In this document: one piece after another, positions 16,501 to 46,176 of the stretch | Layout of the letters: every line of letters begins with the position of its first letter | Position numbering within the stretch: the first letter of the stretch is position 1 | NCBI GenBank assembly: GCA_029262895.1 | Contig: JAJCYM010000043.1 | Coordinates: forward strand, 62,001 to 126,000 | DNA from: Roseivirga sp. | Lineage (GTDB): Bacteria; Bacteroidota; Bacteroidia; Cytophagales; Cyclobacteriaceae | Length of the DNA stretch: 64,000 nucleotides | Direction: 5' to 3' | Notes under the pieces: generated by a model | What the model saw: the letters and a program-made list of their open reading frames with translations, nothing else | What the model was told of the DNA's origin: nothing | Database searches by the model: none | Translations under genes and position numbers: made by a program

Positions 16501-16598
16501 TACCATCCGGCTTATAATAGTTAAGAATTTTTTAGTGCCGCAATTGATTTGCAGCACTTTTTCATGGTATTTCCCATTTTATCCTCTTACTTGCAGTG

Positions 16599-16699
16599 CT
16601 TATCAAGAAAGACTGAGGGATTAGGCCCTATGAAGTCTTAGCAACCTGGATAATACCTGGTGCTACTTCCTAACTCCGAACCAACGGAGTAGAGATGAG
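16599..16699 (+). ncRNA. SAM-I (S-box) riboswitch
   Basis: The leader of the methionine operon has the S-box landmarks in order. The P1 strand CTTATC (16599-16604) pairs with GATGAG (16694-16699). It is followed by AAGAAAGACTGAGGGA, the GGCCCTATGAAG core, the AGCAACCT element, the P3 hairpin CCTGGATAATACCTGG, and a P4 hairpin made by ACTCCG and CGGAGT. SAM binding stabilises P1 and usually shuts off the downstream genes, here metH, the S23-like genes and metF. The segment from 16700 to 16748 would contain the expression platform; no strong terminator is visible there, so control of translation initiation at the GTG is likely. Confidence 0.92.
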
Positions 16700-16748
16700 A
16701 TTAGAGAGACTCCCTTTACATTTCTCGGTAAGCCTAAAGAACTAGAAA

Positions 16749-17771
16749 GTGGCTTACGATATTCAAGATATACTTAAAGAAAGAATCCTTGTACTTGATG
16801 GTGCAATGGGTACGATGATTCAGCGACATACGCTGGAGGAAGAAGATTTTAGAGGCGAGCGATTTAAGGATCATACGCATCCATTAAAGGGTAATAATGA
16901 CCTGCTCTCCATCACACGCCCGGACATCATTAAGGAGATACATGCCCTATACTATGAGGCCGGTGCTGATTTTGCTGAGACCAATACCTTTAGCGGAACC
17001 ACCATTGCCCAAGCAGACTATCATCTTGAAGAGGCTGTTTACGACATCAATTATCAGTCTGCTAAAATTGCCAGAGAGGTGGCTGATGAATTCACAGAAA
17101 GGGAGCCACACAAGCCAAGATTTGTAATAGGCGCAATGGGGCCCACCAACAGAACTGCATCTCTTTCACCAGATGTAAATGACCCTGGTTTCAGAGCAGT
17201 GAGCTTTGATGATTTGCGAGTAGCCTATAAGCAGCAAGCCGAAGCCCTGCTGGATGGCGGAGCAGATATCCTTTTGGTGGAGACCGTTTTCGATACCCTC
17301 AACGCTAAGGCAGCCGTTTTTGCCATTGAAGAAGTATTCGAGGAAAGAGATAAAAAATGGCCAGTAATGGTTTCCGGTACAATCACTGACGCCAGTGGTA
17401 GAACATTATCCGGACAAACCACAGAGGCCTTTTTGGTTTCACTGTCACATGTGCCACTCCTGAGTATCGGACTCAATTGTGCTTTGGGTGCTGAACAACT
17501 CAGGCCCTATATACAAACACTTTCAAAAAAGGCGCCCTTCCATGTGAGTGCACACCCAAATGCGGGGCTACCCAATGAATTTGGTGAGTACGATCAGTCT
17601 CCTGAAGAAATGGCCGAATTGATCGATGGATTCTTGGCTGACAATTTCTTGAACATCGTGGGTGGCTGTTGTGGTACTACGCCTGATCATATAAGGTTGA
17701 TTGCTGAGGCGGCAACTAAGCATAAACCAAGAGTACTAGATAGTCAATTGTCAATAGTCGATAGTCAATAG
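16749..17771 (+). CDS. metH: methionine synthase, homocysteine-binding half
   Basis: This 340-residue protein is the N-terminal homocysteine S-methyltransferase domain of cobalamin-dependent methionine synthase, encoded as a separate gene. It shows DGAMGTMIQ at 17-25 and the three zinc ligands Cys244 (GLNCALG), Cys307 and Cys308 (GGCCGT) that activate homocysteine. The start is GTG at 16749, 49 bp after the SAM-I riboswitch. The last dozen codons ([12 protein letters not shown] and the TAG stop) are written in 7-nt repeat sequence, so the natural C-terminus has been replaced by repeat-encoded residues. The other domains are encoded at 18170-20860. Split MetH proteins are known in Bacteroidota, so the split itself is not a defect. 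Confidence 0.94.
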
Positions 17772-17777
17772 TTTGTT
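17738..17777 (+). repeat. left 7-nt-period array flanking S23-like gene 1
   Basis: Units AGATAGT, CAATTGT, CAATAGT, CGATAGT, CAATAGT run head to tail. They encode the last residues and the stop of the metH N-terminal half, and end 6 bp before the ATG of the four-helix-bundle gene. The array at 18131-18172 is its inverted counterpart: CATAGTCGATGG read on the complementary strand matches AATAGTCGATAG here. Confidence 0.7.
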
Positions 17778-18131
17778 ATGGCATTTAAGTTCGAAAATCT
17801 CAAAGTATGGCAGCGAGCAGTTGATTTAACTGGTGAAGTGGACGAACTAACCAAGTCTTTTCCGAAAGAGGAGCTTTACGTTTTGACATCACAAATGAAA
17901 CGCGCTACCGACTCGATTGCGCTTAATATCGGAGAGGGTAGTACAGGACAGACAGACAAAGAATTTAATAGATTTTTAGGCATTGCTTTAAGGTCAGCAA
18001 TAGAAGTCATAACCTGCTTATATGTTGGGAGAAGAAGGAAGATCATCCAACAAGCTGATTTTGAGAAGTTCTACAATGAGCTGACTGAAATCATAAAAAT
18101 GATTCAAGCATTAAGAAACAGTCTAAAGTAA
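17778..18131 (+). CDS. S23-type four-helix-bundle protein 1
   Basis: This 117-residue protein belongs to the 23S rRNA intervening-sequence (S23, TIGR02436/PF05635) family. Visible hallmarks are [13 protein letters not shown] at the start, [19 protein letters not shown] in the middle (family pattern LxxQxRRAxxSIxxNIAEG) and [19 protein letters not shown]. Family members form pentameric four-helix bundles; their biochemical role is unknown, though some are encoded in rRNA intervening sequences and relatives act in diversity-generating retroelements. Here the gene interrupts the metH operon and is framed by inverted 7-nt-period arrays. It shares only family-level similarity with the second copy at 20944, so the two are not a recent duplication. 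Confidence 0.9.
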
Positions 18132-18172
18132 ACTATAGACCATCGACTATGGTCTATGGACTTTTAACTATG
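18131..18172 (+). repeat. right 7-nt-period array flanking S23-like gene 1
   Basis: Units ACTATAG, ACCATCG, ACTATGG, TCTATGG, ACTTTTA, ACTATG continue from the stop of the S23-like gene to the ATG of the metH C-terminal half, whose start codon is part of the last unit. The array is the imperfect complement of the one at 17738-17777, so the two could pair in the mRNA with the S23-like gene in the loop. Confidence 0.7.
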
Positions 18173-20860
18173 AACGAAAACCAAGTAACATTAAAACTCT
18201 CCGGCTTAGAACCCCTAATTGCGACACCCCAATCCAATTTTATCAATGTTGGAGAACGAACGAATGTAACGGGCTCATTGCGTTTTGCCAGACTGATTAA
18301 AGAAGACAAGTACGATGAAGCTTTATCGGTTGCACGTGATCAGGTTGAAGGCGGAGCACAAATTCTAGATGTCAATATGGATGAGGGAATGCTTGATGGT
18401 AAAGAAGCCATGGTACGGTTCCTCAATCTGATTGCGGCTGAGCCAGATATTGCCAGAATCCCCATTATGGTCGATTCATCAAAATGGGAGATCATTGAAG
18501 CGGGGTTGCAGTGTATTCAGGGTAAGGGTGTTGTGAATTCTATTTCTCTTAAGGAGGGTGAGGAAAAATTTATAGAACAGGCAAAAAAGGTCAAAAGATA
18601 CGGGGCTGCAGTGATTGTAATGGCTTTTGATGAAGACGGTCAGGCAGATAGCTATGAGCGTAGAATTGAGATTTGCGAGCGATCCTACAAAGTGCTCACT
18701 GAAATTGTCAATTTCCCTAAGGAAGACATCATTTTCGATCCGAATATATTTCCGGTAGCCACAGGTATTGAAGAGCATAACAACAATGCACTGGACTTTT
18801 TTAATGCAACACGATGGATCCGTCAGAATCTTCCGGGTGCTCATGTAAGTGGAGGCGTGTCCAATGTATCTTTTTCATTCCGAGGAAACAATCCGGTACG
18901 TGAAGCCATGCACTCCGCATTCCTTTATCATGCCATCAAAGAGGGAATGGATATGGGTATTGTGAACCCGGCCATGCTGGAGGTCTATGATGATATTCCT
19001 AAAGACTTACTGGATAGGGTTGAAGATGTTTTACTTAATCGTAGAGAAGACGCTACAGAGCGGTTGCTGGAGTTTGCCGAAACGGTCAAAGGCGAGGGTA
19101 AAAAACTAGTCAAGGATGATTCCTGGAGAAAGGAGTCGGTTGAAAAGCGATTAGAGCATGCCTTGGTTAAGGGAATCGTTGATCATATTGAAGAAGACAC
19201 TGAAGAAGCTAGGCAAAACTCTGAGAGGCCGTTGCATGTAATTGAAGGTCCTCTAATGGACGGTATGAATGTGGTGGGGGATTTGTTTGGAAGTGGTAAG
19301 ATGTTCTTGCCACAGGTAGTAAAAAGCGCCAGGGTGATGAAAAAGGCCGTTGCTCACTTATTGCCATACCTCGAAGCCGAAAAGGCTGCCAATGCCGACA
19401 CGAGTTCAGCGTCCAAGATATTGTTGGCAACTGTAAAGGGTGATGTCCATGATATCGGTAAGAATATCGTAGGGGTGGTCTTGGCTTGTAATAATTACGA
19501 CATTGTTGATATGGGTGTAATGGTACCCGCAGACAAAATCATCGATAAGGCTATTGAAGAGCAGGTTGATGCCATAGGACTAAGTGGACTAATCACACCT
19601 TCATTGGATGAGATGGTGACAGTAGCCAAGGAAATGGAGAGAAGAAAGATGAGCCTGCCTTTGCTCATTGGCGGAGCGACTACCTCACGTATCCACACGG
19701 CTGTCAAAATTGACCCAGTGTACTCAGGTTCGATAGTTCATGTTCTGGACGCCTCTAAAAGTGTGCCGGTGGCTGGTGAATTGATTAATAAGGAAACTTA
19801 TGACAATATTTTTTCGAGAACCAAGGACGAATACTCTAAACTTAGGGAGGATCATGCCAATCGAAAACAGATCAAAAATTACATTTCTTTCAATAATGCC
19901 AAGGCGAATCGGACTGTTGTTGATTGGTCGGTAAAGGAGATGGTTAAACCTACCATTCTGGGTAATCAGGCCTTTAAAGATTACCCCATTGATGAAATCA
20001 GGAAGTATATCGATTGGACACCTTTTTTTAGCACCTGGATGTTGAAAGGGAAGTATCCGGCCATTTTTGACAATGAGGTGGTGGGCGATGAGGCTAAGAA
20101 GCTCTTCGATGATGCTCAGGTTGTGTTGGATGAAATCATTGAGGAAAATCTGCTCTATGCCAATGGCGTGGTGGGGCTTTATCCGGCCAACGCGGTTGGA
20201 GAGGATGTTGAAGTATATACTGATGAATCACGCTCCGAAGTGCTTAAGACTTTCCACTTTTTAAGACAGCAGGGCAAAAAAGGGAGTGGCCTGCCTAATC
20301 TGTCCTTGGCCGACTTTGTAGCTCCAAAGAGTTCCGGGAAGAAGGATTATTTCGGAGGCTTTGCTGTAACAGCTGGAGTTGGAATTGAACCTTTGATAGA
20401 GAAGTACAAGCAAGATCATGATGACTACAATTCAATTATGATCAAAGCCGTTGCCGACCGTCTGGCGGAAGCCTTTGCCGAATTGCTGCATGAGAAAATT
20501 AGAAAAGACCTCTGGGGCTTTGCTAAAACCGAGAATTTGGATGATGAAGGCTTGATCAAAGAGAAGTATCAAGGTATTCGTCCGGCCCCGGGCTATCCGG
20601 CTTGCCCCGACCATACCGAAAAGGGCTTGCTTTTCGACCTGTTGGAAGTAGAAAAAAATACAGGAATCAGTCTTACTGAGTCCTATGCCATGTATCCGGC
20701 TGCAGCGGTAAGTGGATTCTACTTTATGCATGAAGAGTCAAAATACTTTGGCCTCGGAAAAATTGAAAAGGATCAGGTAGTGGATTATGCTGCCAGAAAA
20801 CAGATGGATGTAGAAGTGATAGAAAAATGGCTCGCTCCGAATTTGAGTTATGATGTGTAG
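18170..20860 (+). CDS. metH: methionine synthase, pterin/cobalamin/activation half
   Basis: This 896-residue protein carries the remaining three modules of cobalamin-dependent methionine synthase: the methyltetrahydrofolate-binding domain (about 1-300, with [12 protein letters not shown]), the cobalamin cap and Rossmann domain (about 320-555) and the SAM-binding reactivation domain (about 570-896, with [12 protein letters not shown]). The cobalamin motif is DVHDIG with the cobalt ligand at His427, followed by SGLI and GGATT. The ATG at 18170 falls within the preceding repeat array; an upstream start would add residues encoded by repeats. The TAG stop at 20858 lies inside the next array. Together with the 16749 gene it reconstitutes full MetH. 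Confidence 0.95.
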
Positions 20861-20910
20861 AAGTGTAGAAGTGTTGGAGTGTTGAAGTGTTGAAGTGTTG
20901 AGGTGCTAAG
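20855..20910 (+). repeat. 8-nt-period array flanking S23-like gene 2 (left)
   Basis: Seven consecutive 8-nt units: GTGTAGAA twice, GTGTTGGA, GTGTTGAA twice, GTGTTGAG and GTGCTAAG. The first unit contains the TAG stop of the metH C-terminal half. The complement of these units (CAACACTT type) makes up the array at 21338-21472 on the other side of the S23-like gene. Confidence 0.85.
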
Positions 20911-20943
20911 AGAGAGGATTTTGTGGAGTAAAAAAAAAGAGAT

Positions 20944-21318
20944 ATGACAAAGGTGACAAGGTTCGAAGATTTGAGATGCTGGCAGTTGGCGAGAAAATTG
21001 ACTTTTAGAATTTACTTAATGTGCAAAGAAGGAGAACTAGCAAGGGATTTTGACACTAAGTCACAATTCAAAAGAGCTGGCCTTTCAATAATGAATAACA
21101 TTTCTGAAGGTTTTGGTCGGTTCTCAGATAAGGACTTTTTAAGATTTCTGGATTATTCTGCCGCGTCATGCACGGAAGTAAAGAGTATGAGCTATGTACT
21201 CTTAGATGCAGAATATTTCAAAAAAGAAGTAATCGTTGAATTGCAAAATCAAATTGAAGAGACTAAGGCTACAGTACTTGCTTTGATGAAATATCTCAGG
21301 AACAGAGACAAAAACTAA
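20944..21318 (+). CDS. S23-type four-helix-bundle protein 2
   Basis: This is a second member of the 23S rRNA intervening-sequence protein family, 124 residues. It contains FEDLRCWQLARKL at the start, KSQFKRAGLSIMNNISEGFG in the middle, matching the family signature, and FLRFLDYSAASCTEVKS. It is charged, all-helical and cytoplasmic. The ATG at 20944 has a purine-rich AAAAAAAAGAG stretch just upstream. The gene lies between the metH C-terminal half and metF, framed by 8-nt-period arrays in inverted orientation, the same arrangement as gene 1 but with different repeat units. Two such insertions in one operon suggest that this cassette type enters junctions between genes. Confidence 0.9.
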   Translation: MTKVTRFEDLRCWQLARKLTFRIYLMCKEGELARDFDTKSQFKRAGLSIMNNISEGFGRFSDKDFLRFLDYSAASCTEVKSMSYVLLDAEYFKKEVIVELQNQIEETKATVLALMKYLRNRDKN

Positions 21319-21337
21319 AACTAAAACACATGTCCAA

Positions 21338-21472
21338 CCCAATACCTCAACACTTGTACACCCCAATACCTGAACACTTGTACATCCCAATACATCAACA
21401 CATGACCACCTCAACACATCGATACATAACCACCTCAACACATCAATACATAACCACCTCAATACTGAACCG
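21338..21472 (+). repeat. 24-bp tandem repeat (8-nt sub-period), right flank of S23-like gene 2
   Basis: Five 24-bp units lie end to end at 21338-21361, 21362-21385, 21386-21409, 21410-21433 and 21434-21457, followed by a partial unit to 21472. Each unit has three 8-nt subunits such as CAATACCT, CAACACTT and GTACACCC. Units 1 and 2 differ at two positions, and 4 and 5 at one. The sub-units are the reverse complement of the GTGTTGAA units at 20855-20910. The ATG of metF follows immediately at 21473. Confidence 0.92.
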
Positions 21473-22426
21473 ATGAAAATCTCAGACCATATAAAAAACG
21501 CCAAAGGCAAAACTCTCTTCAGCTTTGAAATTCTGCCACCGGTAAAAGGTGAAAGTGTTCAGAGCATATTTGATGCTATTGATCCGTTGATGGAATTCAA
21601 GCCACCTTTTATTGACGTGACCTATCATAGGGAAGAGTATGTTTATAAGAAACGTGAGAATGGACTTTTAGAGAAGGTTTCCACGCGCAAACGGCCAGGT
21701 ACTGTTGGTATTTGTGCTGCCATGATTAACAAGTATGGGGTCGATGCTGTTCCACATATCATATGCGGAGGCTTTTCAAAAGAAGAGACAGAGAATGCCC
21801 TTATAGATCTTGATTTTCTCGGCATTGATAATGTATTGGTGTTAAGGGGAGATGCCATTAAATCAGAGGCACGCTTCGAGCCTGATCCAAATGGTCACTC
21901 TTACGCTAGCGAATTACTGGAGCAAGTTCTGGATTTAAATGCAGGCAAGTACTTGCACGAAGAGGTTAGCCGAAACGAAACCGATTTCTGCATTGGCATA
22001 GCTGGTTATCCTGAAAAGCACTTTGAAGCACCGAGTTTAAAATCCGACCTGAAATACCTTAAAATGAAGGTAGATATGGGAGCGGAGTATATTGTCACGC
22101 AGATGTTCTTCGATAATCAGAAGTACTTTGATTTTGTGGAGAAATGTAGAGAGATAGGCATCAATGTGCCCATCATTCCCGGTTTGAAACCTATCACAGG
22201 CTTAAAACAAATGAACGTGTTACCAAGCATTTTCCATGTTGATCTTCCGGATGATCTCGTAGATGAGTTAGACAAATGCGCTGATAACAAATCGGCCCGT
22301 GAAGTTGGCATTGAATGGGCCATACAGCAATCCAAAGAGCTCAAGGAAGCCGGTGTACCTTGTCTACACTATTATACCATGAGCAAGTCCCAAGTGACCA
22401 GGAGAATTGCCGAAGCTTTGTTTTGA
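21473..22426 (+). CDS. metF: 5,10-methylenetetrahydrofolate reductase
   Basis: This flavoenzyme reduces methylenetetrahydrofolate to methyltetrahydrofolate, the methyl donor for MetH encoded just upstream. The 317-residue protein is a TIM barrel with the family's FSFEILPP start (catalytic Glu in this segment), PPFIDVTYH, the DNVLVLRGD strand, IGIAGYPEKH and QMFFDNQKYFDF. The ATG follows directly on a tandem repeat array, leaving no conventional leader, so translation may depend on coupling to the upstream genes or on an accessible repeat region. It is the last gene of the SAM-I-controlled operon and converges on the LytTR regulator. Confidence 0.95.
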   Translation: MKISDHIKNAKGKTLFSFEILPPVKGESVQSIFDAIDPLMEFKPPFIDVTYHREEYVYKKRENGLLEKVSTRKRPGTVGICAAMINKYGVDAVPHIICGGFSKEETENALIDLDFLGIDNVLVLRGDAIKSEARFEPDPNGHSYASELLEQVLDLNAGKYLHEEVSRNETDFCIGIAGYPEKHFEAPSLKSDLKYLKMKVDMGAEYIVTQMFFDNQKYFDFVEKCREIGINVPIIPGLKPITGLKQMNVLPSIFHVDLPDDLVDELDKCADNKSAREVGIEWAIQQSKELKEAGVPCLHYYTMSKSQVTRRIAEALF

Positions 22427-45341: not shown

Positions 45342-45410
45342 GGGTTTCAAGTTCTAAGTTTCAAGTTAACAAAGAACACGAAACTTCGAACTTGGAATTT
45401 AAAGCTCATA
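45342..45410 (-). repeat. 7-nt-period degenerate array with internal inversion
   Basis: On the coding (minus) strand, units GTTCGAA, GTTTCGT, GTTCTTT, GTTAA are followed by CTTGAAA, CTTAGAA, CTTGAAA, C. The core halves CAAGTTCTAAGTTTC (45348-45362) and GAAACTTCGAACTTG (45380-45394) are complementary with one mismatch and form a strong hairpin. The unit words and the order are the same as in the array at 8698-8755. It begins directly after the thioesterase stop and ends about 11-14 bp before the start of the next co-directional gene. Confidence 0.75.
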
Positions 45411-45930: not shown

Positions 45931-46128
45931 CTTTTATTTTGTTTGCCGCAAAATTACGTAGGGTTACGATGATTTCTAAGGTATCAACACTTTTTGCTTG
46001 AAAATCATTCCGAAACTTAAAAGGAGAGTAAATTCCAAAAGACAAGCACCAAATTCGAAAGCCAGCATTGTGCGTTATCCTTTCTTTCGCTGAAGCATGA
46101 AGCGCCTATTTTGAGCCCCATAAATCGC

Positions 46129-46176
46129 CAATTCCCTAATCTCCCAATCCACTAATCTTCCAATATTCCAATCACC
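46129..46176 (-). repeat. 8-nt-period degenerate array at the pcm stop
   Basis: Six 8-nt units in one orientation: CAATTCCC, TAATCTCC, CAATCCAC, TAATCTTC, CAATATTC, CAATCACC as read on the plus strand. The pcm stop codon overlaps the last base of the array. Unlike the others, it has no inverted partner nearby, but the following 200 bp toward the thioesterase contain further repetitive words (GGAATTT, TTTGG). Confidence 0.65.

Follow-up and report, generated by a model that had tools for sequence, protein, structure and literature searches.

The window, that is, the whole stretch of 64,000 nt of Roseivirga sp. DNA analysed here, contains a metH1-metH2-metF operon with a SAM riboswitch leader, the only Rfam match of the window, and each of the two gene junctions of this operon holds one small gene of the 23S_rRNA_IVP (S23, four helix bundle) family, named here IVP1 and IVP2 (Table 1). 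Both proteins lie above the curated cut-off of PF05635 (121.1 and 99.5 bits, respectively; cut-off 33.8) and above that of TIGR02436 (117.6 and 91.6 bits; cut-off 24). Given the SAM riboswitch 5' of the met genes, the two IVP genes are very probably carried along on the transcript of the met operon. Their neighbours are met genes, and neither element is located within a 16S or 23S rRNA gene. Besides the IVP gene and the ends of the flanking genes, no other sense-strand ORF of at least 60 aa exists in either element, hence neither a transposase nor any other mobility gene.

Table 1. Features of the met operon, of its two IVP elements and of a gene-less array pair in the window
Feature	Position	Strand	Support
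SAM riboswitch RF00162, met operon leader	16597..16701	+	Rfam 75.7 bits, gathering 44.4
metH1, homocysteine S-methyltransferase part of split MetH	16749..17771	+	PF02574 E 6.1e-98
Upstream array U1, period 7, TRF unit ATAGTCA	17740..17772	+	TRF score 52
IVP1, 117 aa, 23S_rRNA_IVP / four helix bundle protein	17778..18131	+	PF05635 E 2.9e-35
Downstream array D1, degenerate, inverted relative to U1	18131..18172	+	Reverse-complement alignment score 32
metH2, pterin-binding, B12 and activation domains	18149..20860	+	PF00809, PF02607, PF02310, PF02965
Upstream array U2, period 8, TRF unit TGAAGTGT, overlaps metH2 end	20851..20905	+	TRF score 75
IVP2, 124 aa	20944..21318	+	PF05635 E 1.5e-28
Downstream array D2, inverted counterpart of U2, higher-order repeat of 24 nt (3 x 8)	21325..21465	+	TRF score 128
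metF, methylenetetrahydrofolate reductase	21473..22426	+	PF02219 E 4.3e-69
Inverted pair of period-7 arrays without gene, arms 18 nt, about 17 nt apart, between two minus-strand genes	45345..45397	-	

The original prediction, made from the bare sequence, placed each S23-type gene between a short-period array and its inverted counterpart and gave the two pairs different units. Both claims are confirmed by the profile matches, by TRF, which reports ATAGTCA (period 7) for U1 and TGAAGTGT (period 8) for U2, and by the alignment of the arms in reverse complement, over 31 nt for U1/D1 (score 32) and over 45 nt for U2/D2 (score 40). D1 is absent from the TRF list, with a period-7 self-match score of 10. 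U1 lies within the reading frame of the metH1 C-terminus, before the metH1 stop; by reading, position 18171 looks likelier as the metH2 start than the mechanical ORF start at 18149, which falls inside D1. RNA folding agreed with the predicted pairing, since in both predicted folds the arms pair at the base, imperfectly and with mismatches, and the ORF occupies the loop (IVP1 element: -104.5 kcal/mol, z -1.98, an energy reached by 2 of 100 shuffles; IVP2 element: -147.5 kcal/mol, z -2.54, reached by 0 of 20).

In 388 kb of this genome we detected eight period-7/8 arrays with a score of at least 10, four of them at IVP elements, against two in a shuffle control consisting of one shuffle of each of three contigs. 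The same 388 kb contain four intergenic inverted pairs with a score of at least 26 and a loop of more than 200 nt; all four enclose an IVP gene, and no array pair of such loop size lacking an IVP gene was found there. The much tighter gene-less pair at the end of Table 1 is probably a relic or a mini form. A lone array of period about 8 (window positions 46122-46172) adjoins a minus-strand gene and has no inverted partner in the 388-kb pair scan. On contig C43 of the same genome (168909-168945), an array of about five TCGCAAA copies stands between divergent ORFs; a unit resembling TCGCAAA flanks, by reading, the decayed IVP copy L009.

Occurrence and anatomy of the elements across genomes

The genome to which the window belongs has nine PF05635 matches, eight of them over the cut-off, and all eight show, by reading, short-period arrays on both sides, with units that differ between copies. 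PF05635 matches occur in 49 of 59 relatives and, in a wider sample of Bacteroidota, in 157 of 198 genomes (E<=0.001; over the cut-off in 153). Three sets of loci were studied. The first comprises 99 elements of the own genome and its relatives, derived from 115 ORF matches among the matches listed by dropping duplicates, truncated copies and copies with short flanks (L009 was not among the ORF matches). The second is made of the best 80 of 587 confirmed matches to one peptide pattern, mostly from Bacteroidota but also from Geobacter, Thiohalocapsa, Gallionella, Clostridia and others, including many MAGs whose labels are perhaps wrong. The third consists of 30 loci listed from the 198-genome Bacteroidota sample. 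Arms were scored by local alignment of the left arm with the reverse complement of the right arm, with a score of at least 24 taken as a match; this replaced wide-window RNAduplex energies (150/180 nt), by which the own pair was best in 15 of 99 elements and own and cross pairs were poorly separated.

Among the matches listed for the first set, own arms matched in 38 of 99 elements, compared with 183 of 9702 cross pairs and none of 98 control windows placed 300 nt away. Inverted arrays with an S23 gene in their loop, predicted for the window by likeness to the intervening sequences (IVSs) of rRNA, are thus a general arrangement, and PMC4990558 describes the same make-up for such an IVS. The further expectation that S23 genes of related genomes would be flanked by inverted arrays holds for these 38 elements; the other 61 of the 99 listed remain under the threshold, a part of them because some starts were miscalled (e.g., in L001 and L003), which lowers the match counts. 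In the same listed set, 9 of 99 elements had matching arms in direct orientation, and by local alignment the own arm was the best among all right arms in 20 elements and within the best three in 45. Short-period arrays above the 99% shuffle level were present in one or both flanks of 43 of the 99 listed elements and in none of the 98 control windows, with periods of 7 or 8 save for one arm at period 12.

The other sets yielded comparable anatomies, with matching arms in 56 of the best 80 of 587 (cross pairs: 531 of 6320) and in 15 of the 30 loci listed in the third set (cross pairs: 31 of 870; control windows: 1 of 30), and across these two sets the array units around IVP genes of distant taxa are unrelated. 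The IVP gene mostly lies in sense with its surroundings: both neighbours were co-directional with it in 87 of the 99 listed elements (both antisense in two), in 69 of the best 80 of 587 (both antisense in one) and in 26 of the 30 loci listed (both antisense in none). Because copies at the same site are inherited, elements are not independent in these counts. The next gene starts a median of 38 nt past the IVP stop (first set, matches listed), which puts right arrays a short way 5' of start codons.

With genes named by Pfam, seven of the 99 listed elements occupy the metH2-metF junction and four the metH1-metH2 junction. We take the remaining junctions to include fadB-fadA (15 elements), fadA-acyl-CoA dehydrogenase (fadA-acd; 13), trpE-trpG (6), sufB-sufC (3), nuoH-nuoI (3) and more. 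With L057 and L080, two divergent IVP genes stand in tandem, 5' of a dinB-like gene (named by reading). An rRNA-embedded copy, sought in six loci without clear co-directional neighbours, was not found at gathering score in any of them; two of the six, L262 and L284, proved to lie inside a gene.

Some copies reside inside genes. Among 213 elements scanned, three (L012, L262 and L284) are enclosed by an ORF that crosses the entire element without a stop, and in all three the host frame overlaps the IVP gene. An IVP ORF has a mean of 10.8 stops in its +2 frame, and this frame is open in 4 of 209 cases, namely these three and L244. At least two copies stand in frame within DNA methyltransferase genes: L262 (1480-1839, minus strand) within an N6_N4 methyltransferase gene (PF01555) and L284 inside a homologue. 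The host of L012 is presumably a type ISP-like restriction-modification gene. Between matched flanks there are 4 to 6 codons in the element-less homologues of G247, G260 and G119, 28-29 in that of G136 and about 149 in L262.

Inheritance, loss and matching of the arms

A tree of 173 IVPs (123 columns, built by a quick method and with many forks unresolved) shows mainly inheritance at a site. Eight of the 15 listed same-site groups form one side of a branch, among them metH2-metF (support 98), where IVP2 is joined by six other IVPs, and metH1-metH2, sufBC and nuoHI (support 100 each). For fadB-fadA and for fadA-acd, the starred branches require no fewer than three changes apiece. A Pedobacter fadA-acd copy is sister to a Pedobacter fadB-fadA copy (support 100), and the trp junctions are mixed.

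Junction states were counted in same-genus genomes, the own one included, with states lacking a gene (scar, remnant) judged by reading. Junctions without the cassette, which the original prediction had proposed to look for, were found in related genomes alongside full, remnant and scar states. The IVP gene is present in 5 of 18 genomes at metH2-metF, in 5 of 18 at metH1-metH2, in 11 of 19 at fadA-acd and in 10 of 19 at fadB-fadA, where two genomes keep a right-array scar only and seven have a short junction (5-47 nt). At metH1-metH2, G006 retains a remnant composed of left array, IVP tail and right array, and G004 and G007 retain right-array scars; G020 has, by reading, an array pair without gene at fadA-acd, and the IVP-less metH2-metF junction of G015 contains a degenerate array with one TAACTGA. 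This sporadic presence among same-genus relatives at four junctions is a trait of IVSs. In the 18 same-genus genomes that have a match, two genes encode MetH. We rejected the view that the element had split metH, since within this genus the split is seen whether or not the element is present; elsewhere, some genera have a split MetH and others a fused one (e.g., G031, G040 and G050), regardless of the element.

The IVP protein is under purifying selection, with pN/pS of 0.07-0.37 in 12 orthologue pairs, several of them with saturated synonymous sites; IVP1 and its G008 orthologue are 85% identical (pN/pS 0.10). The copies within the own genome are old, and IVP1 shares 31-37% identity with four other aligned copies there. 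In view of the lack of a mobility gene, the age of these copies and the same-site inheritance, active movement of the elements is putative.

Within a junction, the arms of one genome match each other better than arms taken across genomes (z 5.8-6.25; p 5e-5, the lowest value that 20000 permutations allow), a result obtained for 77 elements in 18 groups of the first set only, with three scoring schemes, raw and log; control windows gave z 0.5 and p 0.31. By group, the signal was reached in 0 of 5000 permutations for fadB-fadA and for fadA-acd, and two more groups had p 0.03-0.04; it was not significant in the other six groups tested, including metH2-metF (p 0.27) and metH1-metH2 (p 0.08). A whole-array test of register gave 31.3 vs 30.4, with 57 of 104 elements above their own null, one of 104 at p<=0.05 and a Wilcoxon p of 0.005. 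Arm matching is therefore mostly a matter of shared units, with a weak register-specific part.

At the same site, arms were similar in 1 of 34 pairs with IVP identity below 45%, in 30.6% of 121 pairs at 45-60% and in 38.5% of 96 pairs above; at different sites, they were similar in 2.0% of 344 pairs at 45-60% identity and in 6 of 35 at 60% or more. Arrays thus change with the IVP lineage, and site counts strongly, for which reason these figures hint only faintly that arrays move together with the gene. We withdrew the view that unit similarity tracks IVP lineage more than site, as site counts at least as much. We also withdrew a universal heptamer motif (186 arms of 129 elements; 3.01 bits vs a null maximum of 2.15 in 30), because its null ignores relatedness and because unrelated arms failed: on 12 arms with IVP identity below 42% the motif had 2.40 bits, reached in 10 of 60 null runs. 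The Coxiella unit GACAGAT ranks at just the 75th percentile of the motif matrix.

IVS-type elements outside rRNA

The closest parallel in the literature compared here is the 23S rRNA IVS of Coxiella burnetii, which has terminal inverted repeats and an S23 ORF and is cleaved by RNase III within the stem (PMC4990558). The elements share with it an S23 gene that occupies the loop closed by terminal inverted repeats, the sporadic distribution, the tolerated positions and the tandem heptamers (GACAGAT, two to three times, in the Coxiella 5' arm; same source). They differ in that the host transcript is a protein operon or gene instead of rRNA, in that arrays with differing units stand on both sides, and in the conservation of the IVP at the pN/pS values given above, whereas S23 is described as decaying in Coxiella (PMC4990558). 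Cleavage has been demonstrated for the rRNA IVS only.

Several reported features resemble single parts of this anatomy. GGGAATC arrays of Xanthomonas (70 and 75 close inverted pairs in two genomes studied) are likewise heptamers in inverted pairs but are described as G-quadruplex repeats, and the main text of PMC4692102 contains "four helix", "S23", "intervening" and "23S" zero times. Paired tandem hepta/octanucleotide sites of Geobacter metallireducens, on opposite strands and at variable distance, are described, unlike our arrays, as putative binding sites of a global regulator, and neither "s23" nor "four-helix" occurs in the main text of PMC2700814. TAACTGA arrays of Beggiatoaceae, Cyanobacteria and some Bacteroidetes are also heptamers just 5' of start codons, but they use one fixed unit, from which both units of the window differ, and are direct repeats with a single indirect one according to the abstract; the portion of PMC4679880 available has no instance of "S23", "four helix" or "intervening". 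PF05635 proteins resemble Avd of diversity-generating retroelements (PMC10053308). In Flavobacterium columnare, a four helix bundle gene similarly lies between two other genes, those for guanylate kinase and nicotinate-nucleotide adenylyltransferase; it is listed, unlike the genes studied here, in predicted phage regions, with arrays unmentioned in the part of PMC5524665 available. In the full-text literature, among the matches listed and with most subscription journals outside, we found no description of S23/IVP genes between inverted arrays in protein operons, in line with the original impression that the arrangement was undescribed. The elements are of IVS type, found outside rRNA in a new setting in operons. 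Their arrangement is both real and widespread, and within the literature searched it has no description from operons.

Tentatively, we favour the reading that each locus is a compact IVS-type, probably selfish element whose ends are recognised by the IVP. Such an element consists of a left array, the small IVP/S23 gene and a right array as inverted counterpart, and it sits at places that tolerate additional sequence, either in sense orientation in the space that separates co-transcribed cistrons or, rarely, in frame within a gene. The host operon would drive expression of the IVP gene. Copies at a junction are inherited and often lost, leaving array scars, and over longer times would emerge at other junctions. 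The arrays would most likely be the element ends, putative multi-site targets of their own IVP protein, which is a pentamer in a solved relative; as both arms would be read by the same IVP, they would change together, whether the target recognised is DNA or a folded strand. The operon mRNA may be cut at the stem by RNase III, which would then be a side effect. In favour of this reading stand the matching and co-evolution of the arms, the sense orientation, the empty, remnant and scar junctions, the purifying selection on the IVP and the lack of an excess of G:U over A:C. Some observations count against this reading: the order of repeat variants matches slightly above expectation, which binding sites alone do not need, the own arm is best in just 20 of 99 elements and 9 of 99 match in direct orientation (matches listed), co-evolution is non-significant at the two junctions of the window, and the shared heptamer motif failed.

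A possible but less probable explanation, the one originally proposed, is an mRNA-borne intervening sequence in which RNase III would cleave the stem formed by the paired arms, setting the IVP segment free for degradation and dividing the operon mRNA, with selection keeping complementarity for that purpose. The RNA folds do pair the arms, orientation is almost always sense, arms co-evolve, and there is an rRNA IVS, equipped with terminal inverted repeats and with heptamers in its 5' arm, whose stem RNase III cleaves in vitro (PMC4990558). However, pairing of the sense transcript gives no sign of being a selected trait. G:U mismatches do not exceed A:C ones (72 vs 63 in 58 elements); in 146 elements they number 144 vs 195 (p 0.007), the wrong direction for RNA pairing, to which base composition may contribute; raising the threshold gave counts of 111 vs 142 (p 0.06) and of 58 vs 76 (p 0.14). 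Sense and antisense duplex energies are equal (p 0.40). Matching reflects shared units rather than exact register, and the IVP protein is under purifying selection. Finally, three intragenic copies leave the host frame open, which is of value only if uncut mRNA is translated and therefore counts against mRNA cutting there. Of the processed element first proposed, the general arrangement, the pairing of the arms in folds and the junctions without it have stood, and the mismatches and the open host frames speak against its processing.

Regulation in the service of the host, by which the IVP would bind arrays in mRNA and adjust translation, either of the gene that follows or of its own operon, appears unlikely. 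Right arrays do sit shortly 5' of start codons (median of 38 nt from IVP stop to next gene), outlast the gene at some junctions (by reading) and recur in the same core operons; the elements are nonetheless patchy within a genus, from 5 of 18 genomes at each met junction to 10 and 11 of 19 at fadB-fadA and fadA-acd, and copies also occur within methyltransferase genes. Neutral concerted change, with template switching between arms during replication keeping functionless arrays similar, would accommodate mismatches without sense-strand G:U preference and the co-variation of arms, but it is highly improbable in view of the arrays with unrelated units that recur around IVP genes in distant taxa and of the 388 kb without array pairs of such loop size lacking an IVP gene.

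Returning to the proposed selfish element recognised by its IVP, a bolder and rather unlikely generalization would count most PF05635 "four helix bundle" genes of Bacteroidota, together with many from further phyla, as cargo of a single pervasive, transposase-free class of elements. These would lodge in the gaps that separate the cistrons of core operons and, in frame, even within genes, each with its own repeat code written in two inverted arrays and read by its IVP; the rRNA IVSs, familiar for decades, would be the special case in which the host is rRNA. The arrangement described here, whichever reading holds, makes testable predictions, namely IVP-array binding, transcript cutting and movement between junctions. 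It may link three features so far described separately, which are rRNA IVSs, inverted heptamer arrays and the heptamers 5' of start codons. It also gives a concrete setting to a gene family that is very common and whose function is unknown, and suggests that many "operon genes" of the PF05635 family are passengers.
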